Shown here: positions 2,230 through 58,924 of the stretch, piece after piece
How the letters are laid out: each line of letters starts with the position of its first letter
Numbering within the stretch: position 1 is the stretch's first letter
Assembly (NCBI GenBank): GCA_963971425.1
Contig: OZ020514.1
Location: forward strand, 45,909,527-45,973,526
Direction of reading: 5' to 3'
DNA: 64,000 nt
Source: Bryoerythrophyllum caledonicum
Lineage: Eukaryota; Streptophyta; Bryopsida; Pottiales; Pottiaceae
Position numbers and translations under genes: made by a program
The notes under the pieces: model-generated
Told to the model about the DNA's origin: nothing
Databases searched by the model: none
What the model saw: only the letters and a program-made list of their open reading frames with translations

Positions 2230-4416
2230 TCAAGATAAGCCACCCGTTAGGGGGTGGTTTATTTGGCTCACACCCTTCGCAACACGAACATCAAAGCGAA
2301 TAGCAAACTCATGAACCAGATCCTCATCACAAAGAACGTCGTACTTCTTCACTGCCGACCTGAACTCTGGCGGGGCCTCGTTGGTCGTTGGAGTAATCCC
2401 GTTGTTCCTCCCCTTCAAGAATGCTGAGCGAGCATCAGACTGCTCCAATTCGCGTCGGATGTTATCAAGGGTTTCATCGTTGATACCCTTCTCAGCGGCA
2501 AGCAACGTAAACTGCTCATACGCCTATGGGACATATGCGGACTCTCCAGGCTTCTTCAGTGGATAATCGCGATACTTCAACATCAATTCGTTCTTGATGA
2601 TGTTGTTCATCTTTACATCCTTTACCCACGACTTCATCAACACACCTGTAGCCCCTTTCTCCTTTCCTGCGTTCACCTTAATATACACCTTCTTATCCAG
2701 AATCGCCTTAGCCAGCTTCATGGAGTCCTCATCACGCAGGTTGACGAGGTACGAAAGGTCCGTGTGAGTGATGTCCCGTTGTGGCATTTGTGGAATCTGA
2801 AGAGGAGGTTGACCGTTCTCCTAAATTAATTGACCCATCTGCCAAGCGGTGAAAACCACTTGCCACTTGTTGTAGAGATCATCAGGAACAAAAACAAGGG
2901 GTAGCTTCTGGGTCTCCCCGTCTTTAGCCTTACTTTTAATGACAGTGAGGTGATTCCTGCAAAAATCCTGCAACAATCATGATGAATAGAGTCAGGTTCC
3001 AACACATGTAAGGCTGTCGGCTGCCAGCCGACGGTCAGATACACTGAAGCTACACAACACAATTAACATGAACAAACAAATGAGCAGTAAAAGTACCTTC
3101 CACGCAGCATGGTCTTCAAGCTGGTCAACGCGACCAAGCTCAATCCACCTCTCCCTTATTCTACGAAGTTGGGGAACGTAGGTCTCTTCCGCTTTCTTCT
3201 CGGCAACATCAACGTTCAGGAGGTTCGAAATTTTCACCAAGTCGTCTTGAGTATTCGACCTGAGTACGATAATGTCCCACTCCATGAAATACTTAGCTCT
3301 CGACGATTCGGGGTCCTCCATCTCTCCGAGCTTCTTACACACAGAGTATGTGTGCTGCCCACCAATGATGAACCAATGACAATTTGGTTCTTCATACCAC
3401 TTGTACGTCTGACCGCCGAAATGAACTTGGTCCTCCGTCATTTTGGGCACGCTCCTGCGAAGAAGTTCCATACCCTTTAACTCCTTGCCATCTTGAGCAG
3501 AACCTGGTGGAGCACGCAGAGGAACGCAATATAGTGGCGGTTTTGCCCGCCAAGGACCAACAACTATGTAGATGATTCGAAGCTAGTCGAGGCGCCTTTC
3601 GACGAGTTCACCGTAAACCATTCCATGGGGCGTAAGGTGGATCTTTGACAAATGAATCTTTATTGGCAGAACCTGCTGCCCAAACGGATAACAACGCCCT
3701 AATCCTTTCTCGACGGTGTTGTACATCTCTTCGACCTCCTTACTGTTGGTATTGGATGAGAGGTTGTTCAGATATACCAGGGCTTCGGCCACCGTCTTCA
3801 CCTTCGCAGTTTTCTTAGACGCCCGCTTCTTTCGAGCCGGATCAGGTGCCACAGCAACAATATTCAGCGCAGAACTGCTAGCCTTTTTTGAGGCCCTAGG
3901 CTTCTTTGCAGCTTTACGTCTGCCATTCCCCTCAGATCCGCCATTGAGTGCCACTCTCTGGTCCTTCGCCTGCATAAAACATTCCACCAATCCCGCGCGG
4001 CTCTCTAGGTGCAAGTCGGTAAATTGCATGCCCACCTCCTGTGCTGACGTGCAGAGCTCCTGTGAGCAAAGGGCTCGGCGAATTCGAACAGCATATGACT
4101 CCGGGTCGTCGTCGGCTACTCGAACTTTCACCTTTAGTAGAAGTCAAATACATTCGTCGTCCTCAGGATCTTCCATAATATCCATCACGGCGACAAGGTT
4201 TCTACCAAGAAAACTCTTGCCCAAGTGCTTCCCGTTGATTCCCATTTCAGTCACCTCCCCTAGCCTCCAGGTAATGCCCCATTCGGTCAATTCACGACGA
4301 GCCTCGAATGTGGCATTCGGTACCTGAATAGCGAGCCAGACTACCTCGTCCTCACTAATACAAGGCCCAAATAGCCACTTCAGTTTACTCAACCTGCACA
4401 ACAAAATAGCGAGCAT
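2230..4416 (-). CDS. ParB-like (GGQH-motif) protein of element A
   Basis: Read right to left, the segments are: an N-terminal part with LTEWGITWRL (4,416-4,144); a stretch with basic Lys/Arg/Ala clusters such as KKRASKK, likely nuclear targeting, ending in IKIHLSKIHLTPHGMVYGEL (4,131-3,583); the signature WFIIGGQHTYSV (3,471-2,992); then a C-terminal region with KVYIKV and IKNELMLKYRDYPL (2,787-2,230). A short β-like segment, P-x-x-x-x-x-L, followed by the IIGGQH turn matches the layout of the ParB/sulfiredoxin/DGQHR N-terminal domain (GERR in ParB). All segments align with a second copy in element B. At least one GT-AG intron is visible (about 2,957-3,096). The frame is interrupted in places, so this copy may be decayed. 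Family assignment rests on motif layout only; DNA binding is inferred. Confidence 0.55.
2957..3096 (-). other. Intron of the ParB-like gene carrying a palindrome
   Basis: On the minus strand the reading frame runs …HAAWK and meets GGTACTTTT (donor at 3,096). An acceptor TGTTGCAG lies at 2,968, with a second possible AG at 2,957. The 17-bp palindrome GTCGGCTGCCAGCCGAC (3,016-3,032) sits inside this intron. Splice sites are by eye. Confidence 0.6.
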
Positions 4417-4757
4417 TGCTCGTGAGCCACATCCGAGTAGAACGTCGTCGGCTGGCAGCCAACACTAAAGATTACCATTGGAACAGAGCACAATTGCTAC
4501 AATATATGACATTACTACATTCAATGGAATTAAGAATTGAAAAATCGAAAATATATACAGCTTGCCATCGGCTGGCAGCCGACGATGAAAGAGAATTATA
4601 CCTATCAACTGACGTCATTTTGTCGGCTGCTAGAAAAAACCCGTCAGCTAGTCACTTTGACTCTAGCGCTCGAGCTCCTCCGCCTCGTTCCGCCTGCTGG
4701 ATGCTCCTCCACTGCTTTCTTCAACTTCCGGAAACACTACATCGGCTGGCCGCGGAC
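3016..4757. repeat. Element-A palindromes, left group
   Basis: Copies of one palindrome: GTCGGCTGCCAGCCGAC at 3,016-3,032; GTCGGCTGGCAGCCAAC at 4,447-4,463; ATCGGCTGGCAGCCGAC at 4,567-4,583; and degraded halves near 4,622 and 4,742. The first lies in an intron and the others just upstream of the exon that starts near 4,400. Each has 8-bp arms around one central base. Variants change single positions, so these are related copies and not random matches. Confidence 0.85.
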
Positions 4758-4799
4758 GGATTCAATCCTAAACAAGGAAAAGTCTTACAACCTATTCCT

Positions 4800-6103
4800 G
4801 AAGCTGCTTAACTAAACCTGGAAGAGTAGATTGCAAATGACCCGGTTTGGTGGAAGCCTGACCTTTTATACATCCTCAAATCTTAACGCCGCAACCGTTC
4901 GATCAACTTTTGTCCTTAATCGAAAGGCCATCGAAGCATCTCGGTAGTCTGATTGTCTGATAGTCTCGGTAGTCTGACAGTTTTCATCCAACCGACTAGA
5001 TTTACAGTTGGCATTTTCAATTTCATTTAAATTTATTATTTAATTTTCCAATATTCAGATTTACTTGTCGTTTTTTTGATCTGATGTAACTTTCTTTTTG
5101 ATATTCTAATTCAGATTTTTTTAAATGTCTCTTATATACTCTTTGATTTTTTGAAATTTCTTTTTAGTTTGGCTTTCGGATTCGACTCATTCTTCCTCGT
5201 CATTTATATTTTGTTTTTGATTCTCTGATAAAATCTTTTCAAATTTTGCAAGGAAGTTTTGTGTTGAAATTTCACATTCGATTCCGTTTGAATTTGAATT
5301 TGAAGTCCAAAAATGAACGCGCGCGAATTTCTGGGCGCGAATCCACGAAGGTGTTTCTCGCGCGAAATTTCAAAATCGACTTTCGCGCACATTGTTCAGC
5401 TGAGAGAGGGATATCAACGCATCTATTCCGAATCCTCTGTCATTTCTCGTCTGCTTCTCTTTATTGCACCTGCTCTCACACGCTTTCGTGTAGTATAGTT
5501 ATTGTCTCAGCTTAGATCGTCCTCTTTGAACTTTTCTACACTGGCTATATTTAGCATTCAAGCATTCTACCTGTTGCGCATTGACAAGCACTTTCTGGAA
5601 GTAGGCGTTCATTTATGGTGTAGGCGATCATGTATGGTTCAATTCTATTCAATGCTTTCTCCGGTTAGAGCTCAGATTCCATGTTCAGTAAAATCCGTGT
5701 ATTGTCCTGTAGCTTTCCAGATTTTGAGTCGCAATTTGATACTGTGTAAGTCGACCTTGTTGCCTCACCTTAACGTTGATTTTGCGTTGATCACCTGACT
5801 ACCTGAAGTCTTGATACCCTAATCACTGGAAACCGAATGTGTGTACAAAAGTGCTCCTTCCCAGTTTGTATCTGCATTCCAAGAAATCATGCACATGCTC
5901 TTTCCGAATCACGAATTCCCAAGTCTCATGCAAAAGCACTGAAATCCTTCGGAAGTTCACCCAAAACTCAAAACCCTAATCTTGAATCCTAATCCAAAAA
6001 CCTAATGCATCAGTTTTGACTTTGTGACGCATGCATGCACACACTCCCTATTTGTGAGCCGTTCTCGGGCTGGATTCATAGGTTGATATATTCGACAAAT
6101 TTT
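4800..6103. promoter_or_regulatory. Divergent promoter region of element A
   Basis: About 1.3 kb without a credible gene between the minus-strand ParB-like gene and the plus-strand transposase gene. It is A/T-rich on the left (4,990-5,240) and has a CpG-rich core at 5,315-5,390. Short open frames here (5,204-5,798) have no family features. It probably carries both promoters and 5' leaders; transcription starts cannot be placed. Confidence 0.5.
5320..5388. promoter_or_regulatory. Three E2F-like sites
   Basis: GCGCGAATTT at 5,321, GCGCGAAA at 5,360-5,367 and TTTCGCGC at 5,381-5,388 lie within 70 bp. The second and third are perfect TTTCGCGC in opposite orientation and match the plant E2F/DP consensus (TTTSSCGC). 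Their position in the middle of the divergent promoter suggests S-phase-linked expression of the element. No binding evidence exists here. Confidence 0.45.
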
Positions 6104-6129
6104 GTCAGCTCCCAGCCGACGAAGCCCAG

Positions 6130-9100
6130 TTGGCATTCTGGATCATGGACTGCGGACCCATTTTATCGTTTATGAAGAACGGAAAATCAGGTCGATGGAA
6201 GCCACGTAAAGGTGTTCAAGTCGCCCTAACTCACTCAGGTCTCTATTATGCTGGTCGCGCAGTTGTTCAAAAAATCATTCTGAGGGATCCATGGATTATT
6301 CGTGTCAAGGTAATCAATATTTCCAATTCGATGGAAATGCCCATTCCGTTCCCAATTGATGGACTATCCCTGCTTCGCGAATACTTGGCCGGTCAATCGA
6401 TTGGGATGCGGCTAACCTTCGTCCATTTGCTATCATCGACGAACTCATTGAGGATCCACCGGAATCCATATTGCAACCCGTTGAGGATATCAAACCAGTT
6501 CTGTTGTTTCTGAACCTTCGTGACGGAATGAAGGTTGCCCTCCTTGTTGATGTCATGGGTCACAACTATTGTGCAGGCGTTGGAGTTATCGACGAGTGCT
6601 CACGAAAGGGATCATGGGAAGGGTTCCTAATTCCTCCCAGCTTCTTTCTGGTTGTCCGAGTCTAGACAGTAAATGTTAAGTTCCTCACTCATACTGCGAG
6701 CTCCCTGAGGTGAGCATGCTTGGTGACACGGTGGGTAACCTTGTCCTCTGGAGTGGCTATTGAGTTCGCCCCATGCGTGTCGGTGACGACACTGGATACT
6801 CCTCATCTGATGAATATTCAGTGAGTGAGATGTCAGGCGCTTCGGATGACGATGATCGCGGGGACATGATCTATGATGACAGCACTTTTTAAGTGTCCAC
6901 AGGATTCAATGCGGATTCAGGAAGCGACTCCGAAGTATGTCGAGAGCAATATGAGGACGTTCCGTCGGTTGGCAGCCGACGTTCAACTGATCAACCACCG
7001 ATTAAAGCAACCTTCTCTTCAGGGGTCAATTGTGATCAATTTCAGTATCCGGATCGACCACAATGGAGGAACAATAACTGCCATTTGCTCGACAATAATC
7101 TCGCTTTAGTTGGGCGGGCGATGATTCAAGTTTGTCTCCCGCATGAAGCATGTGATGCGGACATTTTGGGTGACACTGACGTTGGCGTACTCTTTGTTTC
7201 TGAGCATGAGGATCTTCAGATGACGACGCTACACTGGAAGATTTCGCACACGCGCCTTGAAGGTGGTCCGCTGCTGTTAGATTGCCTCATCTACTGCTTT
7301 GAGCACAATCAAGCCACATGTAAAGATGACGGGCTTGAGGGGGTGGCCATGGATCCATACAGAGGTATGAAACGGAAGCTTAAGCAGAAGTGCGATGTTT
7401 CTGTTTCCAAGTTTCGACGCCTCCAGTCCAAAGATTCTTGTCAGCTTGTTAGTTCGAAAAAGTATTGTTCGAGACGATGCTGTCAGATTTTTCTTTGGGC
7501 GGACACTTGTAAAATCCGCCAGCAGTTCTACTCCTCAAGCTTTGAGCAATGGCGTTAAACTGCGTACGCTGTTCAGGGCCAGCTCCACGATGTTCCTGGC
7601 TTCCGGAAACCCTTCATAACTCTACATGGTGTCAACGTTTGCGAAGTTGCGTGGTTTCGCATTCATGGCGTCTCCAAGTCTGCATACTACAAGTATAAAT
7701 CAGATTCATTGAACAGACGCATAAATGGTGGTCATGGAAATGCGGGAATTCTGCACCGTAGGTCTTAGACTGTTCAGGCTCGTGGGACCATTTCCAGAAT
7801 CATCAACGATAATGCAGACCACATGCCAAATGAGTTTCGAGTCATCGGCAACAAGAGGGTTGCATCTCTGATGGTTCTTCCTGCTACGATGAACTGGAAT
7901 CATCTCCGTGACATGTCCAACCTGGTATGGTTCAACATTCTTACTACTTGCACATTTGACTTGCTCATGTAACCCATTGTGTCGGCTGGCAGCCGATGCA
8001 TGTCTTTTTTTGCATCTCATTAATTCTACCTCATTAGTCTTGATCGCTATCTCTTTCGATTCCAGGTGAACTCTGAATGCTGTGTCAAGCCAATTTCGCA
8101 ATCTGCTGTTAGTCGATTGAAACCGAAGTTTTTTTGGAACGTTGAAGTGAAGGCCGTTGGTAGCAACTTTTCGAGATGTACCGAGTGTGACTATCTGGTT
8201 GAGTTTCTAGCCAAATATCCTCGCGGGTCCGACGAATGGCAAGCACTGCATGATGATCGGGCGAGGCATCTCAACTACAAAAGTGCTTGCCGTAATGTGT
8301 ACTCCTGATGGACATCTCAGTCCATTAATTACCCGTCTGAGTTTCTCTGCATTATTCAAGACAAGATGGACACTTCAAAGATGGTCATTCCAAGAATGCA
8401 GCGGATTACGAAGGCGACCGCAGGTCTTGGACAAATTCCTATTTCATGTACTGGCATGCTTACTCACGGTCACGGTCACGGCGACGGTGCGTATGCGCAT
8501 TACTCGACGTCCTTATGGCCTGGGGACTCCAATTTTACAATCTAGTGGATATGTCGTGTGCTTTTAGTTTTAGAGCGCCGCCCTGTGCAAGAGTCTAAGA
8601 AGCTTTTCACATGTCCACGTCAACGTCCATTCTTTGAAGCTCTACTTCGTGGTAAATCCGGATGTAGTTCTTTGATTCCCGAATCTAGGGGCGATCCGCT
8701 CCCAATGGCTTCACTCGCTCAACCGGAAGTTTGGTTTCCTTGGAAGTTGTATCTCCAACTTGATAATTCCGCAAAGGATAACAAGAACCGATTTGTCATG
8801 GCCTTCTACTCTCTTCTCACAACCAGACAAATTCTCAAGGAAGTGATTGTAGAATTCTTGATTGTCAGCCACACTCATGAGGACATTGATGCGCATTTTA
8901 GTTACCTTTCAAAATTCATCAAACGGAAAAACATTTACTGCTTAGTTGACCTCATGAAATCTTTCATGGACTCTCAGAAGACAATGGCCTTTATTCGTGA
9001 ACTTGTTCGAGAGGTTTCTGATTTCAAAAGTTACATTGCTGATTACCATCACAAAGGCAAGAATAAGCTTGTTGGCCTTGGTGAGATGCACCTTTTCAAA

Positions 9101-10246
9101 TTTTACGTTGAAGAGGAAGGTGAAGATGCGGGATGGCCGGTCATGAGATACTAGAGAAGTGCGACGGATTCATCATGGCTCCCTCCGGATGAGGCTCATT
9201 TGTTTCTGACATCGTTCTGTTTGCATTCATTTTCTTCCGATTTTCTTGTTACTTATTTGTTGGCTGCCAGCCAACGGATTTTACCTTTGTGCTTCTTTTG
9301 TCCTTCTTTCCTTCCATTTCATTGCTTTCTTGTTTTTGTCTAACTCTTTTGTATATTGCATTCAAATAAGCCTGTGAAGATGTGGACGGCGGATCAATTC
9401 GGGAATCCTAACCTTCCGATTGGTGATCCAAAACCAATACCCTTCAAGCCGCTTTGGGGTGACGTTGATGTCAACGAATCGAAGCAAAACAAGGAGAAGG
9501 AGGTTGCAAGAGCCACTGGAAACAGCAAGAAGTAGTCCTTTATCAAGAACGGTATTGCAAGGTATATTGAGTTCTGGAGGACGGGCATGGCTCGAGACAA
9601 ACGATATGCCGCGGATATAGAGCCTTTCATTGATTATTGGGAGCATCTTTTACAACTAATATCTGGTCCTCTCCCTCCAAACCCCGACTGTCTACAAGAA
9701 GGATTCTGGCCGAAATCGGACTGGATGCGTGATCATGCTCGCGCAGCGTCACAGCCGGATGCAATAATTTTTGGCTTGGATGTCACACTAGAAGATGAAC
9801 CCGACGCTTACCCTTTCTGCGGCCCCGAGATGAGCCGTCCGAAATTATCCTTCAATCCATTTCGTGATGTTCTTCTTGGTGATTTTGTACTCTGCCGACC
9901 TTGCACTGGGCATTACCTTCCTGTGTGGATGGGCCGGGTAGTGGAGTGCGTCAATCACAGTCCTAGGGATTCCTACGATAACTTTAAGGTTGAATGGTGG
10001 GTTCCACTCACGACCAAGAAAGATTCTAAGAAGATCATCGGGAAGGAGTGCTGGAATAAGCGGTGGGAGCGTGAGCAAAGGGATCCAGATGTTCAGAACT
10101 GCAGTATTGTTCTCTTCTCGCATCGCTACCCGTCTCATAATAAGCGTAGGCCTCCAAAGACCCACCGTATCCCACCTGAAGCAGCGAGCGCTGCAATGGC
10201 TTGTTTGGAGGTAGGTGGCATCGCTGTTCATGGAAGTAGCGAATGA
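6130..10246 (+). CDS. DUF7869-type transposase-like protein of element A
   Basis: A multi-exon gene. The N-terminal part (6,130-6,660) has two similar blocks, GVQVALTHSGLYYAG and GMKVALLVDVMGHNYCAG. The middle (6,893-7,900) has a Cys-rich stretch KYCSRRCCQ, then FYSSSFEQ and a block with SRIINDNADHM. Next come VSRLKPKFF and a FSRCTECDYL Cys pair (8,066-8,308). The catalytic-like core follows: IIQDKMDTSKMVIPR (about 8,352), LQLDNSAKDNKNRFVMAF (about 8,754) and VSHTHEDIDAHFSYLSK (about 8,868). D…DN…HTHEDID is the hallmark I know from proteins catalogued as DUF7869, thought to be transposon-related. The C-terminal part (9,587-10,246) has LGDFVLCRPC and W/E-rich blocks typical of the end of such proteins. 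Some joins between segments are out of frame; some are introns and others may be damage. Confidence 0.65.
7925..8065 (+). other. Intron in the DUF7869-type gene with a palindrome
   Basis: The frame ending …RDMSNL meets a donor GTATGG at 7,925. A pyrimidine-rich tract and TTCCAG end at 8,065, and the next exon reads VNSECCVKPIS. Copy 7,981-7,996 of the element palindrome lies in the middle. The homologous gene in element B has an intron at the same place (ending TTCTGCAG near 59,040), with a B-type palindrome nearby at 58,911. Confidence 0.65.
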
Positions 10247-10751
10247 TTGCATTTTCTTGGTCGGCTGCCAGCCGACGGGTTGATATTCTCTGCAATGTAA
10301 TTCGTTCATCATATATTAATTTGAATGTTGCCTGGAACAGTAGTATCTGCCGATCTTTCGGCCATTGATACATTTTTCAAGTAACTCATCTGACATGATC
10401 TCAGTCTGAGTAGTTGGTGTTATTCTTGTCGGCTGCCAACCAACAGCCTCTATATTTTGCATATGCAGTTCGATCCATTTTTTGTGGTCAAAGTCTTCGT
10501 GCGTGTGAAGGAAAGACTGAAATCTGTAGCACGTGTGTTGCTCGGTATTATAATGACGAGTAGATGGATAGTTGTACATGAGTAATTATTGTTGGTGCGC
10601 AATTTGCGGCAAGTGAATTATAAATTCACGGATTCACTGTATGTGAAGTATCTCATTGTGTTCAGTTGTTTTTGTGTATCTTGGTTTTTATTTGCTACAG
10701 GTTGGAGTGATTTCTTCTTTTCTTAGTTTGATTTTGTCTCCAGCCGACGAC

Positions 10752-11183
10752 ATGGTTGAGACTCGTAGTATGGCGCTTGTCAGGAGAGCGAGAGAGGAAA
10801 GGGGGGAGAGGGAGGCAAATGAGGCCAGAGTTGCCAGGGAGGCAGAGTCTCAGAATAGTATAGTGTCCGTAAACTCTGTGGATAGCACTGTTCCATCGAG
10901 TGACGTTCAGGAGGAGAATTGGAATGAGGAAGATGACGAAGAGGAGTCCAACCACGATGTCGATTCAGACGACGATGGCGGTCAGCATGTCAATGTACAG
11001 TTGGGATGCTCTGATGAAGATGACCTCCATTGCAATGGATCGGACGAGGTGGACTTGTGGGCTACGAGAAACTTTGACAGCGATTCGTTTTCAAGCTTTT
11101 CGGGTAATTCATTTGAAACCGGATGCGACACCGGTTCGGACGTGGACTCCGATATGTACGCTCCTGCATGGCGCAAGAATTGA
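10752..11183 (+). CDS. Acidic small protein of element A (unrecognised)
   Basis: An open frame of about 143 codons from the ATG at 10,752 (MVETRSMALVRRAREERGER) to 11,183; the frame is open further upstream to 10,656. The N-terminus is basic and helical and the rest is Asp/Glu/Ser-rich (ENWNEEDDEEES, DSDDDGG), ending APAWRKN. It follows the transposase-like gene on the same strand and could be a separate small gene or its last exon, since a TTTGCTACAG acceptor-like site lies just upstream near 10,700. I do not recognise the family. Acidic tails of this kind occur in chromatin-associated proteins, but nothing specific can be claimed. Confidence 0.45.
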   Translation: MVETRSMALVRRAREERGEREANEARVAREAESQNSIVSVNSVDSTVPSSDVQEENWNEEDDEEESNHDVDSDDDGGQHVNVQLGCSDEDDLHCNGSDEVDLWATRNFDSDSFSSFSGNSFETGCDTGSDVDSDMYAPAWRKN

Positions 11184-12230
11184 TAGATGTGAAGTGTAGT
11201 TCAGCTTGTAAATAGTCCCTTGCAGTTGCTTTTCTCTAATTGATTTTCCAGGCTGCTGCCATCTATGGGGCACCTCCAAAAGTAACATTCATTTCGACTA
11301 AAATATCGTGCTCTATTCAGATCTTATCCTTAATGTACTTCATTTTAGTCAAGCTTGTTTTTACCTTTCTGTTTTGATGTTGTGCTTTGTAGAATGCTGT
11401 GTGTAATAGAATTTTGTTATCAATGTATTCTCTTCATGGTCGTTTATGGATGTTCAATATTTTACGTGCTGCCAATTGGCAGTCATCTTTTTATGAAACC
11501 CACTTCCTCTTCTATGTTTCTGTCTTTAGATTGATCACCTTTATTACTTTACCCACTTTGTCGGACTTAATTGATGGATGTTTTTTTCACAACATTCTGT
11601 TGGCAAGATTTCATTCTTTTTCATTGAAGTTCTTCTTGTCGGCTGCCATCCGACAACCTTTTTTAATTTCGAGTTTGGAGATCATCTATTTGCCCTTCTT
11701 ACTCGGGCCTTTACTCTCTTAGTGTTTCCCTAATTTTTCAGGAGATCATTCTGCCATCTACTACTATTTTTGCGAGCTGCCTACTAGGAGCCTTCTTTGT
11801 TTGTAGTCTACTAAAGTCTCTGTTGTCCGTCGGCTGCCGGCCGACGTCTGTACTCGTAGGACAAACCACGTTCTTTGTTTTCATGTTGACCACCTCTCAT
11901 TGCTTCATATTTTTGGTTTAATTTCCAAATAATCACCTTATTTTTCATCCCATTTTTTGAATAAATTGTTTGATCATTGAAGTTTTTTTACTTACCTTTT
12001 TTAATCATGAATTTTCTTCTATAAATATATTCGGTGATTCTGATTCCTCCTCTTTCTTTGTCCGCTGGCCTCCGACCTTTAATTCTGTCTTCGAGAATCC
12101 TTAGGGCATATGGAGATTCTTTAGGGTTCAAGGGGAATATTTAGGGTCTGGGAGAATATTTAGGATCTGAGAGAGTATTTAGGGTCTACAGAGAATCTGT
12201 AGGATTTTGGGGAATCTTTAGATTTTGTGG
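11184..12230. other. Noncoding right flank of element A
   Basis: T-rich DNA without a credible gene. It holds two A-type palindromes (11,638 and 11,829) and a separate perfect palindrome CTGCCAATTGGCAG (11,469-11,482). A loose minisatellite at about 12,095-12,225 is built on TTAGGGTCT spaced roughly 20 bp apart. The end of the element is probably close to 12,230. Confidence 0.5.
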
Positions 12231-12493
12231 ATTAACAGCCAACGCTTAAAGTTAAGGATTCTAGTGGTTTTGAAGAGACTATATTATGATATGAGACAGT
12301 TATTATAGTTTTGTGTGGGACAATGTTTGGTGGAACGCAATTTCGAATGTATATGTTTAGGATATAGCCCATATTTTCTTGTTTACTGGTATGATAAAGG
12401 AAATGAAATCCGAGTCTAAGTTTTTTTTTGGTCCATAATTGATCGATTTGTCCATATTTAGTTAAATATCCGTTACATACCAATATAGAAATA

Positions 12494-12760: not shown

Positions 12761-12820
12761 GTACCATTACAAACAAAAAACATGTTTAAAATCATTTAAT
12801 GTTCAGAGCAAAAGTATTAT

Positions 12821-13677: not shown

Positions 13678-13790
13678 GCGTGGACGTCCCCGCCCTCTAC
13701 CGAGGTTGGGGCAAAGATGTCTCCGCCCTTGCCCTGGTTGGCGGAGACGTCCCTGCCCCTGCCTCGGTAGGGGCGGGGATGTTTGCTTGT
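13678..13790. repeat. Element-C palindromes, first group
   Basis: GCGTGGACGTCCCCGC at 13,678-13,693, GCGGAGACGTCCCTGC at 13,741-13,756 and a half site GGGGCGGGGATG near 13,770, lying between the two minus-strand paralogs. All centre on GGACGTCC. They are joined by CCCTACCGAGG-like spacers, which suggests that the group grew by local duplication. Confidence 0.85.
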
Positions 13791-17450: not shown

Positions 17451-17489
17451 TAAGAAGCTCCGAGCTAAGTATAAAGCCCGAACCTCGAG

Positions 17490-46840: not shown

Positions 46841-46841
46841 T

Positions 46842-47526: not shown

Positions 47527-47599
47527 AATACGAGTACGTAGGCTGAGATAAGGAACTTGTAGAGCTTAAAAAAACTACAAATATACATATAGAAGTGTT

Positions 47600-49200
47600 C
47601 TGCATTGACAATCCTGAAATGCTCGGTGGAAGATTGAGCAATATATAGATGATGGCACATAAATATAAATGTACACATGAGGCACTTGGGACAGTAGGTG
47701 AAGTATCCCTAGTGGTTTGAGCTACACCAGCGACTTCTGCAGTCTGCGTGGGGTTACTGTCACCGACATCCTTCGATTGTGCTGATCCTGCCAAAACCTG
47801 AATACCAATAATGAAGTAGTCAAAATACAATCTGTGTAGGGTGAATAGTCCTGAAAACAAGCAAGAAGGTTTGATAGACAAGTAATTCTTCACCTTATCT
47901 TTTCGGGCCCTTCTCCGAACAGGAACTGGAGGAGGAGGTTCTTTTGACACAGGGTTCCTTGCGATTGCCTTCTTCTCTTTTTCAGGCAGTTGTCCCTAAC
48001 AACGCAGAGGGCTGCGCGGAGGGCTCATAACATGTAACTCACGCAATGTTTGTTGCACTGATACCTCATTTACCGTGTGATCGGTGTCACACATTGTTAG
48101 GTCCACGGCACTCATGTTCAGGACGCGTTGTCACAGAGACGTCCTGCGGGAGATCTCCAGCTGCTCTGTGGCTGTCGTCGAAGTGCAGGGGATCAAACAT
48201 TGCCGTGTCATTGTAGAAATCTTGCGATAGGAGACGCTGCCCATCTAAATGGGAATTGGTTTCTTCTAGAGAAGGACGCAATCGAGGGTTCGGAGTAGAG
48301 TTGCTTGTCAAACTAGGGGAATCACGACTGAAAGGATGACGAGGTTCATCATCGTTTAACTCCATGGGGTCAATTGGGGTGCCCGAACCCAGGACCCGCA
48401 CTTTTGCGGCCAAGCACTTAAATCTAAGGTTGCTAATCGTTGATGTAGTCGGTGCATACATCACATCAACATCATGCAGCAAGTCATCCTCCATCTTCGT
48501 CACAGTGACGAAGTCAGTGTGAAAGAAATGAAGATGCAGTAAACAAGGAATCGGCATCATACAGCCGGAGATCTTTGGTTCAACATAGTCCATGTCTACC
48601 AAGCGTACTAAATTTAAACATTACAATGAACGAGATGAGTCTTGAAGTACCGAGGACGTCCTACCATTAACATTTACGACTACCATACCCTCTTTGATGA
48701 TCATCGTAAAGAGCAAATCGAGGACCGAGATCCTCAACTGCGGAACACCGGGCTTCTGCCAGCGCTTGATGGAATCGACATGACCAGTGGCTGAAATGAA
48801 GGCCGACATTTCTCGAGGTGGCCTCTGAAGAGCCTCTTGAATGACTAAGCAAGCTTCTCGCTCGCATCATATTCATACATGAATACATAGTGTATTGTCT
48901 CACTGACATCGATATCTGGGGTCAGAAACCCATCAGCTTGGTGAAGAAAGTAGTAGATCACATGCGTTGACCACAATCTCACCTGGCCCCTGGAATCCCA
49001 CTGCCAAAATATAAGGTACCTCTTCAATTCCAAGTATCCCGCTCCGTCCGTGATAAGAACCGATGGTAATCTGACTCTCGTCTGCTTATCATTCATGTCC
49101 ACTTCAAGACGGTCGAAAATTTTCTTGAAGTCAAAGTGATAGAGGACCTAAGCACGGCATCTCTTGTCTTTCACACGATAGAGGAAATAGAAGGAAAAGT
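47600..49200 (-). CDS. Unrecognised exons between the ParB-like and FCP1-like parts
   Basis: Several minus-strand open stretches: SKDVGDSNPTQTAEVAGVAQ with a Pro- and Arg-rich PPPPVPVRRRARKDK (47,950-47,690); a Ser/Pro/Asp-rich segment beginning MVDMDYVEPKISG with MELNDDEPRHPF (48,602-48,087); and a hydrophobic, Trp/Tyr-rich segment, KRYLIFWQWDSRGQ (49,102-48,845). The stretches are separated by likely introns. I do not recognise a domain. The segment order suggests one long multi-exon gene running from the ParB-like part to the FCP1-like part, but separate genes are equally possible. Confidence 0.4.
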
Positions 49201-49272
49201 GGGGGTCTTTGACATGACGCCACACCTAAATGTCCGGCATAACAAGTACTCGGGCGACCTTGCCTCCATTGT

Positions 49273-51330
49273 CTAGCAAAACCCTACAGGTGTATTTGGA
49301 GTCAAATAAGGATGTGTTATCGCTGGGGGTGGCTTCGGCAGCTGCACCTGGAATGTGTTGATTCCAAATAGACATAAAGACGTTTGGGTGGCGTTGTTGT
49401 CCTTGTTAATCGCCTTCAATTGGCCGTCCAACCACGCTTTACCCTTGGCCGAGTGATTTGTGGCGTCCACCCATGACTCGAGCTGGGGTCGTCCAATATT
49501 CTTCTCTTCTGCAAATTCGTCCCACTCCTCCTTCGTGTATGGGACTAAGTCAGCAGACTTCACGGGAAGGGCGTGCTTCTTGTATTTCAACATGAGTTCA
49601 TTCTTCATGGTTTGGATTCTCTTCTCCCGATTGGCAGCATTTTTGAGAGTCTCGGCCTGCTCCAACATAAAACCTTGGTTCGCCGCTTTGGATGACTTCA
49701 CATAGACCTTATTTGCAAGCACCAAGTCCGCGAGGTAGTCTAGGTCCTCAGCGCGCATTTTTAAAGTGGCTGGAAGTCGTTTTGCACCACAGGTTTCCGC
49801 TTCAGCTTGATAGGGTTGCCCGTCTTCCCGTTCGAGTCTATTAGGAGTCTAGCGACGTACATCTTGTCGATTCGGATCCACTTCTCAACTACCGCATCAT
49901 CCATCTTGAATAGAAGAAGGACCTTTGCATCTTTGGGGTCCGTTTGACCGAGGTGCGTGAAAATCGTAGGCACTACTTTTCGTTGGAACGCCTACAATGA
50001 GATATAATACAATGAGAGAGCGGCCGGAGATCTCTGGTTGAATGATTTGCTTATTGTGAAGAAAGAGCGCATCGATGAAATATTGTTAAGGTCGAAAACT
50101 TAATCTTATTGAAAATGCCTCAGATTGTGGACGACCATATACTTTGGGGGCAACTTTTCCAAACTCAAAGCGCTTCACTTTGCACGTTTGCAGCAGCTCG
50201 GTGAAACTCTACTCCTTTCGCAGACCCGTCAAATCTTGGTTGAGAGCACGCGAGAGTTATAGCAGGGTTATGTCTTTGGGGTCCGGTTTGGTCCAAACCG
50301 GGATGACTGAGAAGTGGGAGATCTCTTCGAGCGACCACGTAGATGGCAATTCGTGTAACAAAATTTGTGCGCCTCCACAGTATGCTGACCACCAATAATG
50401 TAGAAGTGCGTCGAGTTCCTCAGGCAGTCCTCCTTCCTCGGCTTGGTCTCCAAGAACTCCACCTTACTTCCTTCAAGTTTTTTCTTCAACGGCACGACTC
50501 AAATGTGAATCTGAGGTGCAGTCGCCTTTGAAGACGCGCAAATACCGTTGATGAATCCCTTAAGTTGTTCTTTCTGGATGCCCCTGTATACTAATTCCTC
50601 AGGGGAGGCCATGTGCAGGTTGTTGAAATGAACAAGCTTCAGGACATCCTTCTTCGTGACAAGGTCTTCTACTCTCAACGGCTTATTCTTGTGTATGTAA
50701 ACATTTTTGAACGCGTCGTCGAGAACTTTGCCAATAGCTTCCACTTCAATCCGCTTCATTCTCATGAGGTTGACCAGCATGTGTGAAATTCAGGCACTTT
50801 TTGATCGTGAGGCCTGGCTCATTGGCCTTCGCTTTCTTCCCCTTCTCCGTCCGTGACAAGGAACCTGGAGTCAAAGTCTTTAAGGTGGTCTTGCATTTTC
50901 TTCCTGAGGCCGATGCTGGTGCTAGAGACAGAATTGGAGGAGGGTCCGGAACGTGCTTTCAAGCATTTGCTTGTGCTACACTTCCACTACTCCATAATGT
51001 ACTCTAGCGTCCAAATATCACTTGTGGGAGGGGGGAATAGAAAGTTCTCATTCTGGCAGGTCTCCACCAATGCTTCCAAAATCTTAGATGTGTCTAGGAT
51101 CAAGCCGTACATGAGAGCATCGGCGGAAGAGTCCGTGTTCTCCTAGATAACAAGGAGGCAGACCTCGTCATCAAGACTGTGCATCTCGTGAACCTGGAGA
51201 CCAATGTCGGGGTGTCCTCGTCTACCAAGCCTAAGTTAGGGGACGAATTCCCAGGCTCCCTCAAGGGTTTTAATTAGCTTGATGCCCCACTCGGTCATGT
51301 TTGGTCGACATCTGTATATGTAGCCGACAT
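49273..51330 (-). CDS. ParB-like (GGQH-motif) protein of element B
   Basis: Read right to left: MTEWGIKLIKTLEG (about 51,300, the counterpart of LTEWGITWRL in element A); a Lys/Ser-rich segment (51,000-50,800); VLKLVHFNNLHMASPEELVY (about 50,640, aligning with IKIHLSKIHLTPHGMVYGEL of A); FYIIGGQHTVEAHKF (about 50,400, the GGQH turn); then KVYVKS, MKNELMLKYKKHALP and YTKEEWDEFAEEKNIG (49,758-49,273). The last blocks are also shared with A. The conserved order across two diverged elements supports a real protein. As in A, the layout fits the ParB/sulfiredoxin/DGQHR N-terminal fold. The segments lie in several frames, so introns or damage are present. DNA binding to the element's palindromes is inferred. 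Confidence 0.55.
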
Positions 51331-52131
51331 TGTGTATCCCTCTGTAGACGAACTCTGGGAGCTAGTACTTCACAAACGCCCCAAGTTTCTCGGGACGACT
51401 TTCCATCGGAAGTGTGGTTGACCATGAATCCTTGCAAAAAGGTTACATAACAGCACTTGGGTAGTTAGCATTCATTGAAAACATCCAGTCATCTATGTTG
51501 TGTCCGGAGATCTCCGACTATATTCCCAAAGATGGAATACATGGAAGGAGCTTCCACTTCCATGACACAGTGCCAGCAACAGTAGAGTTTGGCACCATTT
51601 TTGAATCTTCAGAAACTCGTGCAGCTAATGATCTCTAATCGCTTGAAGTATCTAGCTCGCGCTACAGTCGGAGATCTCCGGTTCGGTAGCCAAGTTTCGA
51701 AGTCATCGCTAGGCAATATCGCAACTTACTTGAAACATCCGGTGATCTCCGGTTGTGTGTCGGAATGGAAACAACAAGGAAAGGTCTTTTTGTTTCAGGC
51801 GATAGTGGAAGTATCCGGAGATCTCCGGCTAGTAAGTGGAACTCGAGAAAGTCGTCTTAAATAGTACATGTACTGATGAGACGGATCCATTTCACGCGAC
51901 AACCGGAGATCTCCGATTTATGACCCCAAAATTGAGGTTCATGAATCTTCACATCTTCATCAGGGCGTAACTCCACTGCTTTGTAACGTCCAGAGATCTC
52001 CGGCAATGTGCCAGAAAAACCACATCATGAAAGGGAATTTCATGATCCATGATATCGCGAAATCATCGGAAGATCTCCGGTTGATTATTAGAACTCCGGA
52101 TCCAGTTCGGGCAGCTATCGGAGATCTCCGG
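50024..52131. repeat. Element-B palindromes, left cluster
   Basis: Copies of CCGGAGATCTCCGG and close variants at 50,024, 51,503, 51,668, 51,739 (CCGGTGATCTCCGG), 51,815 (perfect), 51,904, 51,990, 52,067 and 52,118. From 51,668 to 52,118 the start-to-start steps are 71, 76, 89, 86, 77 and 51 bp, fairly regular. They lie in noncoding DNA upstream of the first recognised ParB-like exon. Half copies in or near coding DNA occur at about 48,147 and 48,565. Confidence 0.9.
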
Positions 52132-54150
52132 CTGTGACGAGACCAACTTTAAATTGCAACAATTGCATAAGACCATCAAGCATATATTCACAACCATTCA
52201 CAAAAAACTTCGACATATGACCCATTAAAAACGCGGAATGGAACGACTCTACATGGATTTCTCAACTGATGTAGTCAGCAGAGGTCAATCATTGAAGGCC
52301 GCAACATCAAGGTCTCTAATACAAAATTCAGGAAGAATCATCATTCCATCAAGCAAAAATTCATTACCGTCTTCAGTATACTTAAACAAATGAATCAATG
52401 AAACGCCAAAATGTAACGATTCTACATGGATTACTCTTTTCACATTCAAAGTGGACCGGACTCGAAGGACTTAGTATGGAGAAATTCATTCGAACCTTCA
52501 GGAAAAAACCAAAATCAAACGCATGTACATGGATAGATATATAATAATGTTTACGGGACAACAGAAAACCAACCGACCATAGACAAACACACTTTTGTAT
52601 TCTAGTACGCTATTTCTGAGGTTTCTCATAATCATGCAAGTGTTCGACATTGTCATACACCCGGTCCGTAACAAAAGAGCCAATTCTAAAATAATAGAAT
52701 ACCAGAAACCCCACACGGCTGCATAGGATGAGCATAAACAATTCTAAATGGATGACGAACCGGTTACCCTGCCACGACGTCCCACTCGTCGTCCCTGCCA
52801 AAGTAGCCATTTTCCCACTGCCTTCAGCGACTGCTCTACAACATCGCCCAAGCGGCTTTGCAGTACATCAAAATTCCACACCTCAGCACTATAATTTCTA
52901 CAATAACTCAGACGCCCTAGAATTTGAGCTCCAAATTTGGTTGAGAAGAATTCCTTGGATTGAATCACGGCACAACATAAAATGCTCATATATAGCCATT
53001 ATGAACTGAATATAGAGAACACCAAAATCCCTTATTCTATACCCTACAAATCCGATCAAACGACTAACAACATCATTACTATTCGAGTCTATCGTACTCT
53101 AAGAGAGCCCACCGAACCCTACACCCTCTCTCATGACTTTTCTAAGCACTCCGGAGAAAATGCAAAGTCCGGTGACACAATACTTTACAGTTATGCTTAT
53201 CATAGACATTACTTACCTCCTCACTTGCCGAATCGCCGCACCCCTACGTCGTGTCCGTTCGTGTCGACGCCACCCTCAACCGCAACGTCGTTCCCTCTCC
53301 TCTTGTGAACAAGCAGCGCTCTTCCAAATTCTTTCAAGTTCAAACGCTCTCTTCCAATCGTGCACTCCGACATTCAGACGTTCTCCACAAACACCGGGAC
53401 CGCTCCACTCACGACTACCGCTTGGGCTTTTTGGAACTCTCTCTCAACTCAACACAACAATCTCTCGACGGTACGCTCAATGCAGGCACTCAAAACAACC
53501 CTCACCGGTCACACCGACAACCTTTTCCACCGCATACGGCCCGACCTCAAAGCTTCGTTGCCGATTCCGCAAACCGCGCAAAAAAAACCACTCCCGCCAC
53601 TTCCGCTCACTAGCTACGACAGTACAAAGACACAAACCCACAAAAAACAAGAAGAAATGATGCTCTGGAGTTTCAATAACCTGAAGTGGACAAGTTGAAC
53701 TGCTCAAGGATGTGACGGCTCATGATGACATAGGGTGAAGTCACAATCAGCTAAAATCACGTACATATACAACATGTACATTTCACAATCATGACATTGT
53801 CAATGTCGTGAGCATGGGTGACGAGACGTATTGATACGTGGCTTCAGGGGTATTACAAATGACTAGAGTAGATACTCGGATTCACCGGATATTAAAGTAA
53901 TCACTATATTTGAATTTAATACTAAATAAGTGAAAAAGCTATCATAACACAAATTAAACTACATAAGTGAAAATTTAAGTACGTCATTACTATCATTTGT
54001 AATTTTTTCCATGTGGAATTTTATTCATCCACATTTTTCATCCATATCTAACATATCTACTTATGAAGTCATCCATCTTATTCATCCATAATAGATGTAT
54101 TCAACATCGATGCTCATTTTATGCCATATAATTTACCATAAACTTTAATG
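52132..54150. other. Region between the two gene sets of element B
   Basis: No recognised gene. TCTACATGGATT occurs twice (about 52,249 and 52,423). Frames at 52,744-52,989 (minus) and 53,133-53,698 (plus) are open and coincide with a less A/T-rich part, so they could be first exons of the divergent genes. The plus-strand proteins are low-complexity Thr/Ser/Arg-rich, and I do not call them. Confidence 0.35.
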
Positions 54151-55640
54151 GATTGTCCGTGACAACCTCATCTTTTTTATTCATCATCCATAAACTAGAG
54201 ATCTATTATAATAGATCCCTCACTCTCCTTCTCTTACTCTACCTCTCTCCCTTACTCTCTCTCTCTCCCTTACTCTTCCTCTCCCTTACTCTCCTTCTTC
54301 CTTACTCTCCCTCTCTTCCTTACTCTCCCTCTCCCTTACTCTCCCTCAAATTAACTCCCCCTCTCACTTGTCTTTATTTTATTTTTGTTTTGCTCTCCCC
54401 TCCTTCTCCTTCTCCATCTCTTTTCTAATTTTAATTTTCAAATTTTTAGATTTCCCTTGATTTAAATGATAACATATTCTAAAAATAATCAACAACTCTA
54501 AAAACAAATCCCGCACTCTCCCTCTCTTACTCTCCCTCTCCCTTACTCTCCTTCTCCCTTACTCTCTTTCTCCCTTACTCTCCCTCTTCCTTATTCTCTT
54601 TCTCCCTTACTCTCCCTCTCCCTTACTCTCCTTCTCCCTTACTCTCGCTCTCCCTTTCACTCCCTCTCCCTTACTCTCCCTCCCATACTCTCCCTCTCTT
54701 CCTTATTCTCCCTCTCCATCTCTTTTTTAATTTTAATTTTAATTGTTTTTAGATTGCCCTTGATTTGAATAATTACATATTCTTAAAATAATTAACTACT
54801 CTAAAAACAAATCCCGAACTCTCTCTCTCTTACTCTCCCTCACTCTTCCTCTCCCTTACTCTCCCTCTCCCTTACTCTCCCTCACTTACTCTCCCTCTCT
54901 CTTACTCTCCCTCTCCCTTACTCTCCATCTCTCTTACTCTCCATCTCCCTTACTCTCCCTCTCCCTTACTCTCCTTTTCCCTTACTCTCGCCCTCCCGTA
55001 CACTCCCTCTCCCTTACACTCCCTCTCCCTTACTCTCCTTCCTTTACTCTCCCTCTCCATCTCTTTTTGAATTTTGATTTTAGATTCTTTGAGATTGCCC
55101 CTGGTTTCAATAATTACATATTCTAAAAATAATTAACTACTCTCAAAACAAATCACAACCTCTTCTTGTCTTGCTCTCCCTCTCTCAATTACTCTCCCTT
55201 ACTCTCCATCTCTCTTACTCTCCCTATTCCTTACTCTTTCTCTTCCTTACTCTCCCTTTCTATCTCTTTTTTAATTTTGATATAATTTTTTTGAGATTTC
55301 CCTTGATTCAAATTATTACACATTCTAAAAATATAAAGTACTCTTAAAATAAATCCCTCACTCTCCCTCTCTTACTCTCCCTCTCCCTTACTCTCCCTCC
55401 CTTACTCTCCCTCCCTTACTCTCCCTCCCTCACTCTCCCTTCCTTACTCTCCCTCCCTTACTCTCGCTCTCACTTGTTTTTATTTTATTTTACTCTCCCC
55501 TCGTCCTCCCTTTCTATCTCATGTTTAATTTTGATTTCAAAAAATTTACATTGCCCCTGATTTTAATAATAGTGTACTCTAAAAATAATAATCTACTCTA
55601 AAAATAAATCCCTTACCCTCCCTTTCTTCCTTATTCTCCC
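54150..55640 (+). repeat. Pyrimidine satellite with ~300-bp higher-order unit
   Basis: Long runs of TTACTCTCCCTCTCCC-like units, purely pyrimidine on the plus strand apart from the A. They are broken at about 54,420, 54,715, 55,050, 55,265 and 55,515 by an A/T block (ATCTCTTTTTTAATTTT … CTACTCTAAAAACAAATC). The A/T block recurs with spacing of about 215-335 bp, giving a higher-order repeat of about five units. The 91-codon frame at 54,153-54,428 is a product of the repeat. Confidence 0.9.
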
Positions 55641-55829
55641 TCTAACTAAATTATAATGTATCAAGTTTCACATAGTTATTGTTCAATTCTTGCTAAATTC
55701 CCTTATACTCTATTGTATCAAGTTGATTGTTACAGTTATGGTTATCGATAAACTTAAGGTTAGTGTTCATAGTTATTAAATAGTTTTAATTTATAGATTT
55801 ATAAGTGATATAAGCTCTAGACCTTCAAC

Positions 55830-56050
55830 CATGAATTCTAAACCTTCAAATGTGAACTGTGAATCGTGAACCTTGAACATTCAACCGTGAACTGTGAATC
55901 GTGAACCTTGAACATTCAACCGTGAACCGTGAACCCTGAACCTTCAACCGTAAATCGTGAAACCTGAACCCTAAACCGTGAACCAAAAATCCTAAACCCT
56001 AAACTCTAAACCCTAAACCTGAACTCTGAATCCTAAACTCTAAACCGTAC
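55830..56050. repeat. Degenerate telomere-like and 39-bp repeats
   Basis: Units around GAACCTTGAACATTCAACCG and GTGAACTGTGAATCGT repeat at about 39 bp. They grade into AATCCTAAACCCTAAACTCTAAACCCTAAACC (two exact CCCTAAA copies among variants), the plant telomere heptamer. Likely an interstitial, decayed repeat. Confidence 0.75.
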
Positions 56051-57110
56051 ACCATGATGCATAATCCAATCTAAACACAAAAGTTGAATCCGAATTCATA
56101 GTACCAGCTTGTTGTAGTTCTAAAAGCATCTGCTCAGTAATTTGTGCATGTATCTTCTCAAGCATCCATATTACTACTATCAAACTAGGGAATATTGACA
56201 AATATTCTATTAGGTGACGAATGCCGACGTTCTTCTTGTAATGCCAGATGAACATGATTAGTGGGCAGCAGAGGGCCGACTTTTTTCCTGGGATAGGCTA
56301 TAATTTCATTCATAAAGGTGAATACCAAAAGTCCAATGCGATTACATTATATTGTGTTATAGTCTAAGACGTGTTACGCACCTACTGTATACAAAAACAC
56401 ATCATGGTGCATACTTCATCTTTTGTTTCCCAATTAGCAGGACTCTGGGAACTAGATGGTTTCCTTATGATAAGGTCAACCCAAGAGTACGAGCCATTCA
56501 TTATCATGAGTGCAATGTGGCCTTGATCGTGGGCACGTCGAAGAATGCGCAAAATCATGATGGTGTACAACAGTTAGTTCGAACGAGCATGCATGCCCAA
56601 CATCCGTTTTAAATTTGAGCGCCTGAATTTTCCCTCCATGAGGTGTTGGAAAGGGTTGATAAGAGTATCCTTCAACTCAGCTTCATCCTTTTTTGCTCTT
56701 GACGTTTGGTATCCTGTGGGAGTTGAGCGAGTCAGTGAGAGTGTTTGCGTACACAACTTCGTGCTAGTAAAGTGTAGGAAAACGATTTAGCATTATTCCA
56801 GGAATGTTACATATGTTTCCTCGTATGATTTCGTATCCGCTGTCTTTTTGTGAAGATTGGTGAAGAATGTGTTGCATTGTAAACTTTGAGTCGTTTGGCA
56901 GCTGTCGTGTAGTGCTTCACTAACTAATTTGTCTTCGGAGATACTGTCATAGCTTGGAAGCCGATATTTCTTTTCGACTCCGGATTTAAGATGATGTAAT
57001 TGCTTGGCGTGTGCATCTATACTATTGTCCGGCGTTTGCAACTGAATCTCTTTGTCTATTCCGCGAATATTCTGTACAGCACGTGTTTCATTTGAAAGAA
57101 CGAAAGCCAA
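56051..57110 (-). other. Unrecognised minus-strand open stretches
   Basis: Minus-strand frames at 56,040-56,255, 56,382-56,570, 56,574-56,756 and 56,793-57,110 (the last with NIRGIDKEIQLQTPDNSIDA) lie in a row. They might be exons of one gene of element B with no counterpart seen in A, but no domain is recognisable and all are near the length expected by chance. Confidence 0.25.
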
Positions 57111-57111
57111 A

Positions 57112-58924
57112 CAGAGATCTCCGGTTGTTCAAGCCGTGCAAGTTTGACTTCTCCTTAGCTCGTTTGCTTACCACAACTGCTCCCCCGGAAATCGGTGGCT
57201 GTCATTTTGGTCTCATGCACAATATCCGGAGATCTCCGGCTACTGTAGTGTGGAATATTCTACAAAAGTTTGCTCAACAACGTGGTTCTGATTGACCGGA
57301 GATCTCCGGTTAGATACGCCTGGAACTTTAAGCTCCACCCTACTTTGTCGTCCTCGAACAACAAGGCGTGGTTGTAGATCATTCTTCGGTCAACCGGAGA
57401 TCTTCCGCTAGTCCAGCCTTCGATATTGAGCTTGATCATCCAGTTCGTATCCACATCCACTCATACTCTCCTAGAGGGCATCTGCCACCAGCCGAACATC
57501 CACCGATGCAACACGGAAGTATGTCTGACTTTGAGGCGTGGAAGCATGCCCTGGACGACCTTGCCATGGTCGCAGCTCAATGCCTTGATTTTGAACATGT
57601 GAATTATACGGAAGACGATGAACCATCCTAAGAGTCTACAGGAAGTTTGGAGCTTCTACGGTTAGAAATGTCCATGAACCTTAAGAGGCCGGGTTCTAGC
57701 AAAATTGGAGAAGCATCCATTGTTGCGGTTCACTCAGTAGGACAATGGCTTGGAGTCGACATACCAGTCGATTCGAGGGAGTTCGTATTACTTACACCGA
57801 CGGCCATAATGTCCACGGTCGAAGAATTACCACTCATTCCCTTGCAACGCAAATACGATTCACTTGTTCATACATTCCAGCGGACCGTCCTGTGGAGAAG
57901 GGAAAATGTCATGATTCCATCTGGAGATCTTTGATCAGACCATTCCCCATTTGTACCACAAGAGCGTTGGATTGGACTTGAAGTGCAGCGATTGGACGGA
58001 AATGGGTTGTTGCTCTGCTCTAGGAGAATCATGGCCACGTTACCAACGGATCAATTCCGTGGTGGGTGGTTGGGAGAAGATTACATTGGTGTAACGGTCC
58101 TCGACGTTTTAGTTGGGGACACAGTGAGAATTATGAGTCATGAATCGTGGCTCATTCTGGAATGTTGTTTTCCTTCAAGGCGGTCTTTGAAAAGCACAAT
58201 TGATCATTTCGCATCCCGGCCTTTACAACATGATTCTGATGCTCATTTGGGGGGTCATCCAAAGGAGCCATAGCGCTTCATTTCCTGACAGCAGGTCCTA
58301 AACAAGAAGGAATCCTTGTACACCAAGAGGACTACTTACGACGAAATTTGCAAGGTCAGCTCGGAAAGGTGTTGTCCAAAACGTTGCTGCCTGTATTTTC
58401 AATAATCCCGAACTCTTTCTGTTAAACAAAAAATTTATGACAAATCCTTTGAAGATAAAAAGGAGTATGCGATCTCGGTAGGCAGGCAATTTCACTGCAT
58501 TGATGGGGATCCAAAGAGAAGATACGCCACGTTCTTGGGAACGGAGGTCTGCTTCGTTGCATGGTACACTATCCCTAGAATACGGAAATCCACGTTTCAC
58601 ACGTATATAGGACAATTCAACAGAGGAATCATCTATGCTACTCACAGTAACAAGGGCATCAAGCGTCCACTGCTTGCCACTATACAAGCCATGGGGTCAA
58701 TGAAGTCCATTATTAATGACAATGCGGATCAAATGCATCACTAAATGCGGAGTGTTGGGAATGGTCGGATTGACACTCTCAAGTATCTTCCTAAAGGAAA
58801 CAATTGGAAGAAAATACGTGCCAACGTCAAAGATGTACTTAATCAATCCTTGCAAATTGATATGGACTTGTATTCTCCTTCCTTAGTCGTTTCAAGTCGT
58901 TATTTTCAAAGCGGAGATCTCCGG
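57112..58924. repeat. Element-B palindromes, right cluster
   Basis: Copies at 57,112 (CAGAGATCTCCGG), 57,226-57,239 and 57,296-57,309 (both perfect CCGGAGATCTCCGG), 57,394-57,407 (CCGGAGATCTTCCG) and 58,911-58,924 (GCGGAGATCTCCGG). There is a degraded copy near 57,919. The first four sit at the beginning of the plus-strand gene and mirror the left cluster; the last is in or next to an intron. Confidence 0.88.

Follow-up and report, generated by a model that had tools for sequence, protein, structure and literature searches.

Why should two related and presumably mobile elements, lying in one stretch of a moss genome, carry short palindromes of different spelling at the same places? The question arises from a window of 64,000 nucleotides of Bryoerythrophyllum caledonicum (GenBank assembly GCA_963971425.1, contig OZ020514.1, positions 45,909,527 to 45,973,526 of the forward strand), whose own numbering is used below. 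An initial annotation of this window had proposed that three mobile elements (A, B and C) each carry a palindrome of their own, in about a dozen, 15 and eight copies. Judging by their protein similarities, A and B are homologous elements made up of two divergently transcribed genes each, and both have a private word (GTCGGCTGSCAGCCGAC in A, CCGGAGATCTCCGG in B), whereas the copies of word C form tandem arrays and C is only putatively mobile. The announced copy numbers are recovered (13, 18 and 9) when mismatches are allowed (up to three for A, two for B and four for C, the limits used for counting sites), but exact copies are scarce (2, 3 and 2, respectively).

Private words at shared positions

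The relationship between A and B can be followed in both genes. The plus-strand genes match each other between the open reading frames (ORFs) 7559-8305 (A) and 58406-59423 (B) with a best E-value of 2.6e-12, and the minus-strand genes between ORFs 2527-2820 (A) and 49276-49848 (B) with an E-value of 1.4e-5; identity in the aligned stretches is 44% for the plus gene and 26-36% for the minus gene. The plus genes have a homologous intron (7925-8065 in A, 58835-59039 in B) which is in phase 0 in both elements, with equal distances from the junction, and is bordered by ungapped protein matches of 57 amino acids (25 identical) before it and 45 amino acids (20 identical) after it. This intron contains the A word in A (7981..7997) and the B word in B (58911..58924). 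The second intron of the minus gene (3096-2968 in A, 50142-49992 in B) is probably equivalent in the two elements as well, and it holds the A word at 3016 and the B word at 50024; the correspondence is only probable because the flanking protein matches are weaker (10/38 and 14/50 identical residues) and the junctions agree only within about 7 residues. The first minus-gene intron of A (4601-4394) has two A sites, and the stretch upstream of the matching exon in B has a cluster of eight B sites. The position of the words is preserved between A and B while their spelling differs.

The words are also confined to their elements within the window. All 13 A sites are found inside 3016-12076, and 18 of the 19 B sites inside 45906-58924, the remaining one being located at 27577. 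Allowing one more mismatch adds two matches to each word (56890 and 59533 for A at four mismatches, 33242 and 42811 for B at three). Word C has 9 sites at up to four mismatches and 7 at up to three. Set against 200 dinucleotide-preserving shuffles per region, 13 A sites were observed in 2200-12250 where 0.010 were expected, 18 B sites in 45700-62600 where 0.010 were expected, and 5 C sites (up to three mismatches) in 12800-17000 where 0.025 were expected; for A and B the enrichment exceeds 1000-fold. Searches for each word in the regions of the other two returned no match in any of the six comparisons, and a control region (22000-45000) contains no A word, a single B word and no C word, in agreement with the initial observation that the motifs hardly mix.

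This separation bears on the possibility that each element has adopted the sites of a host transcription factor or chromatin protein, in which case no binder would be encoded by the elements. Promoters and introns are normal places for the sites of host factors, and the element proteins that were scanned have no recognized DNA-binding domain. Yet, homologous elements with unrelated words in the same intron and without any mixing would be less expected of a host reader, for which a shared word would be more natural, and we consider this explanation rather unlikely.

The predominance of the two words does not depend on having been looked for. In an unbiased scan, all inverted pairs of 6-bp half-sites (gaps of 0-6, up to two mismatches) were counted and compared with 25 shuffles of each zone. 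Zone A is led by the A word (11 vs at most 6 in the shuffles) and zone B by the B word (17 vs 6). The top palindromes of other zones score 4 vs 5 in 59424-63990, 6 vs 5 in 17100-26400, 4 vs 5 in 26400-30400, 3 vs 3 in 33500-35500 and 4 vs 4 in 35600-39700. Larger values were obtained for ACCGGTnnACCGGT in 30400-33000 (9 vs 4), in part owing to an 8-bp tandem repeat, and in 39701-45690 (6 vs 4), where the pairs are made up of TCCGGA.

Placement and form of the sites

All 13 A palindromes fall within the zone of element A (working limits 2257..12250), together with its pair of divergently transcribed genes and an acidic ORF. Its minus-strand gene (2257..4618), whose product has a lysine-rich middle, consists of exon 1 (4618-4602), exon 2 (4393-3097) and exon 3 (2967-about 2257). 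Its plus-strand gene (6150..10246, the 5' limit being approximate) contains a DUF7869 domain (PF25273; E = 1.4e-32, 113.3 bits, for a Pfam curated cut-off of 26), and relatives of this domain align to it at 8108-9556. Both genes contain in-frame stops and are broken copies. One exact palindrome occupies minus-gene intron 2 (3016..3032) and two further sites occupy intron 1 (4447..4463 and 4567..4583); a copy with three mismatches stands upstream of the minus gene (4741..4757), and a further site is directly upstream of the plus gene (6104..6120). In addition to the site in the intron common to A and B, the plus gene has one in a putative second intron (9259..9275; intron at about 9213-9372, borders by eye). 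The second exact copy lies 3' of the plus-gene stop (10260..10276) and four sites are found in the 3' spacer (10428..12076, starting at 10428, 11638, 11829 and 12060). The only A site within a modelled coding stretch is 6964..6980 (1/13, against a coding share of 63% in the zone; p = 6.4e-5), and a site is present in all four modelled introns, the putative one included (p = 4.8e-4).

The zone of element B (45906..58924) is delimited by the extent of its 18 palindromes. One of them lies in intron 2 (50024..50037) of the minus-strand gene (49276..51431), which is homologous to that of A and has a broken frame, and eight are clustered at 51504..52131 (starts 51504, 51668, 51739, 51815, 51903, 51990, 52067 and 52118). 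This cluster lies upstream of the minus-gene exon starting at 51430, in what is either intron 1 or the promoter. Four others (57111..57407, starting at 57111, 57226, 57296 and 57394) precede the plus-strand gene (57497..59423, 5' limit by eye), which is homologous to the A gene on both sides of intron 58835-59039. DUF7869 is undetectable in B, whose match with A is restricted to the part upstream of the domain, and no DUF7869 relative matches B. With strict coding limits, none of the 18 B sites is coding, compared with 28% of the zone (p = 0.003), or with 42% if the 52200-56900 insert is excluded (p = 5.1e-5); with looser limits, 2/18 sites are coding vs 43% of the zone (p = 0.0043). The claim that the copies are mainly noncoding is therefore borne out under strict limits (1/13 in A, 0/18 in B).

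The sites themselves are short. The A and B words are rich in information, which falls at their edges: next to the A word it is 0.7 bit in the first position and at most 0.4 further out, and next to the B word it is 0.3-0.9 bit at bases 1-3 (up to 0.9 at the second or third) and at most 0.2 further out. Since conservation is essentially limited to the palindrome, the A and B sites are not pieces of a longer repeat; homology of the kind left by miniature inverted-repeat transposable elements was not found past the palindrome for A or B in these flank profiles. The passive spread of a miniature or tandem repeat is an explanation that is true in form for C, and local duplication could yield words confined to one element. 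Nevertheless, the loss of information within 1-3 bases of the A and B words, the irregular spacing of their sites, the avoidance of coding DNA and the occupation of the homologous intron in both elements all run counter to it, and for A and B it is very improbable.

The initial statement that the copies are not in tandem holds for A and B, given their flanks and irregular spacing, but fails for C. The C copies form three short, degenerate tandem arrays of about 30-bp repeats, with a spacing of 23-32 bp and once of 63 bp. The first (13678..13756) is upstream of the first ATG of the minus ORF 13696-12824. The second (15097..15196; four sites spaced by 23, 30 and 31) separates the minus ORF 14964-14452 from a kinase-like gene on the plus strand, and the third (21702..21781) has three sites spaced by 32 and 32. 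Two of the three arrays are upstream of ORF starts; the ORFs near them include two paralogues (68% over 150 amino acids), and the adjoining kinase-like ORF 16364-16975 (+) has a Pkinase match (E = 5.2e-6) that is under Pfam's cut-off. Word C is treated here as a palindromic minisatellite that lies close to the starts of genes, and it makes a weaker case than A and B. Promoter minisatellites are a general kind of repeat which word C resembles and which the A and B words do not match.

The symmetry of the words could also be read at the RNA level, as hairpins in transcripts that act in splicing or stability or serve as sources of small RNAs. All six A copies within modelled genes retain six out of six stem pairs on the sense strand when G-U is allowed, as this explanation would have it. 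However, the two B copies of known sense strand retain just 4/5 pairs, many sites lie outside modelled genes, and the central base of those six A copies has no strand preference (three G and three C on the sense strand); a role as hairpins appears highly improbable. G or C occupies the centre of the A word at all 13 sites, an outcome that the search pattern favours. Of the 54 departures from the three consensus words, 36 are C>T or G>A changes, a raw count that is compatible with decay by methylation.

A candidate reader encoded by the elements

The palindromes can best be read, with moderate confidence, as family-private cis sites for a dimeric DNA-binding protein, most likely encoded by the element, that would mark the element's own noncoding compartments. 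The two-fold symmetry of the words suggests a dimer on DNA, and words that differ between the elements at a position common to both suggest that the reader varies along with the element. Such a factor would recognize the palindrome of its own element and would mark its introns, promoters and 3' spacers. Its likeliest use would be to protect these compartments from host silencing, so that they stay open or expressed, by analogy with the VANC proteins of the VANDAL transposons discussed below; plain self-regulation would be nearly as likely a use. The best candidate for the binder would be the diverging minus-strand gene common to A and B. It comes first because it is more diverged between A and B than the plus gene and because no relatives of the A copy were found in protein searches; this divergence and this absence of relatives are as might be expected of a co-evolving recognizer. 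A dimeric factor per element, as the initial annotation had it, fits the symmetry, the private spelling and the shared minus gene, but the corresponding domain could not be recognized.

Several observations weigh against this reading, in addition to the host-factor explanation given above. No DNA-binding domain was recognized in the minus gene by scans of Pfam, NCBIfam and PDB sequences (a DUF6551 match on a piece of the B gene is weak, E = 0.16), and the AlphaFold model of a minus-gene piece is unusable (mean predicted local distance difference test score, pLDDT, 36.8). The density of A sites is low (13 per about 10 kb), and the specificity of the words is established inside the 64-kb window, where each family has one copy and both A and B are broken. 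The coding limits used for the placement tests were drawn manually and can be as much as 3 bases off the models of the intron comparison. Finally, the expectation of one dominant palindrome per element, which holds when zones A and B are scanned as such, is lost for A in fixed 8-kb blocks: there the A word is inconspicuous, block 1-8000 being led by other words and block 8001-16000 giving 5 A words vs a shuffle maximum of 9.

The plus-strand gene links element A to a larger family. Among 322 candidate proteins, 245 match DUF7869 at an E-value of 0.001 or better, and at least two clusters with over 100 members occur among the 120 of these matches that are listed. From this multiplicity and from conserved D, H and E residues, we infer that DUF7869 proteins may be transposases, and A and B probably mobile elements. 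Profile searches of viral-contig and genome-contig collections returned no DUF7869 relatives, and the AlphaFold model of one relative is unusable (mean pLDDT 38.1). No terminal inverted repeats stood out: the best inverted flank matches score 11.5 for A and 14.0 for B, compared with 11 for a control pair, and the right arm of the B match falls within an ORF. These results concern a further possibility, namely that the palindromes serve transposition itself as sites for a transposase or an accessory protein, in the way that the sub-terminal repeats of En/Spm serve TnpA. One motif in multiple short copies per element is what such a function would produce. The sites are, however, scattered along 9-13 kb, where they occur in introns, promoters and spacers, and no terminal repeats stood out to which they could be related; a role in transposition looks improbable.

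The relatives of DUF7869 may contain a palindrome of another kind. A tail pattern, in which the reading continues beyond a putative splice donor, is present in 54 of the 120 listed proteins and corresponds to 52 distinct tails. The shared tail carries GCRRSAD, whose residue variation fits the codons CGG CGG (a by-eye reading), and GTCGGC-N5-GCCGAC is encodable by 12 of the 52 distinct tails, its half-site ranking 9th of 4096. None of these 52 tails could encode the A word with a TGNCA centre, the B word or the C word. As a protein can be back-translated in more than one way and the tails are interrelated, a tail palindrome in the relatives is suggestive at most.

Neighbouring features and known systems

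Other features of the window surround or adjoin the two elements. The A plus gene is followed on its 3' side by a short acidic ORF (10752-11183, +), which has an A half-site (10741) just upstream and for which a Pfam scan gave nothing significant. The B zone contains an NIF (NLI-interacting-factor-like phosphatase) domain at about 47232-47448 (-), with an E-value of 1e-5 and 25.7 bits for a Pfam cut-off of 21.8; its gene is a possible cargo of element B. Further downstream, a 364-amino-acid ORF (60803-61897, +) has no match in Pfam or NCBIfam and lies in a zone with neither a B palindrome nor an enriched palindrome family of its own; it probably belongs to another element or gene. Repeats resembling TTTAGGG/CCCTAAA, the plant-type telomere word, are found at 12112-12231 and 55950-56050; they are compatible with a host of the green lineage but no proof of one.

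A retroelement-like inverted pair occupies 35600-46000, its copies being 79% identical. TCCGGA is its most over-represented hexamer under a first-order model (20 vs 1.3 and 27 vs 2.3 expected, an enrichment of 12-15 fold) and falls outside the top eight under a third-order model. It is kept between the two copies at 13 of 20 places, vs 42/155 for other CG-centred hexamers (Fisher p = 0.001); the corresponding retention is 9/26 for other NCCGGN, 13/38 for other palindromic hexamers and 1157/3810 for all hexamers. Some of these sites are within long ORFs, where codon effects are possible. The pair raises the possibility that the mobile elements of this genome make general use of private palindromes. 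In the CCGG-rich stretch 30400-33000, ACCGGT was observed 12 times vs 0.8 expected, partly as an 8-bp tandem repeat. Another retroelement, at 22000-26500 (-), has a reverse transcriptase (E = 5.7e-23) and an RNase H (E = 1.3e-14). The ORFs 18047-20047 and 36002-36589 resemble each other (31% over 156 amino acids), and we would guess that they are gag-like.

Three known systems offer comparisons with A and B. Dispersed short palindromes are the form taken by ParB/KorB-type operators in bacteria, and the palindromes of A and B are likewise short and dispersed. The stretch IIGGQHT in the minus gene resembles ParB by eye, which we take as a lead only. No ParB domain was found for this gene in Pfam, NCBIfam or PDB sequences, in searches that a remote relation could escape in broken copies. 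In the En/Spm (CACTA) elements, sub-terminal repeats are bound by TnpA. The likeness lies in multiple short copies of a motif recognized by the element's own protein, a feature of En/Spm that is here proposed; the motifs are, in contrast, sub-terminal in Spm and spread over the genes in A and B, and a scan of their sense frames revealed no CACTA-type domain.

Sequence-specific self-recognition of this kind is, to our knowledge, best documented in VANDALs. In a search of one open-licence library, none of the papers listed looked, by title and the opening of the abstract, like an account of such a system, and DUF7869 gave no paper. It is only tentatively that we propose an evolution of self-recognition independent of that of VANDALs, in which a DUF7869-type lineage would combine a dimeric binder that evolves fast from family to family with its own dispersed palindrome at fixed noncoding sites. 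If element-encoded proteins do read the sites, sequence-specific self-recognition would have originated twice, on the second occasion in an element unrelated to VANDALs, and would follow a simple and testable code, with one palindrome per family and another word in the same intron. The co-evolution of protein and site could then be measured across families, which would also supply orthogonal pairs of palindromes and binders.

The parallel with VANDALs, already drawn in the initial annotation, can be retained for the layout. In Hosaka et al. 2017 (PMC5735166), VANDAL motifs are described as short, family-specific and located in introns, upstream regions and other noncoding DNA; the VANC motif is given as YAGTATTAY, and VANC proteins bind such motifs and cause a loss of methylation (PMC5735166, PMC10398659). 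What A and B have in common with VANDAL21 and VANDAL6 of Arabidopsis are family-specific motifs in intronic, upstream or intergenic noncoding DNA that differ between related families, in an element with multiple genes; a short, family-specific motif enriched in noncoding DNA was found inside the window for one copy per family. The differences concern the motifs and the proteins. VANDAL motifs are tandem, in the same orientation and of high density, whereas A and B have dispersed palindromes. The plus gene of A has a DUF7869 domain, and no Mutator-like element (MULE) domain was found in a Pfam scan of the sense frames of A (6000-12250, +; 2200-5000, -) and B (56000-62601, +; 45700-52301, -), which yielded DUF7869 in A and the NIF phosphatase in B. 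In the domains of these frames and in motif arrangement A and B differ from VANDALs, but they may work like one.

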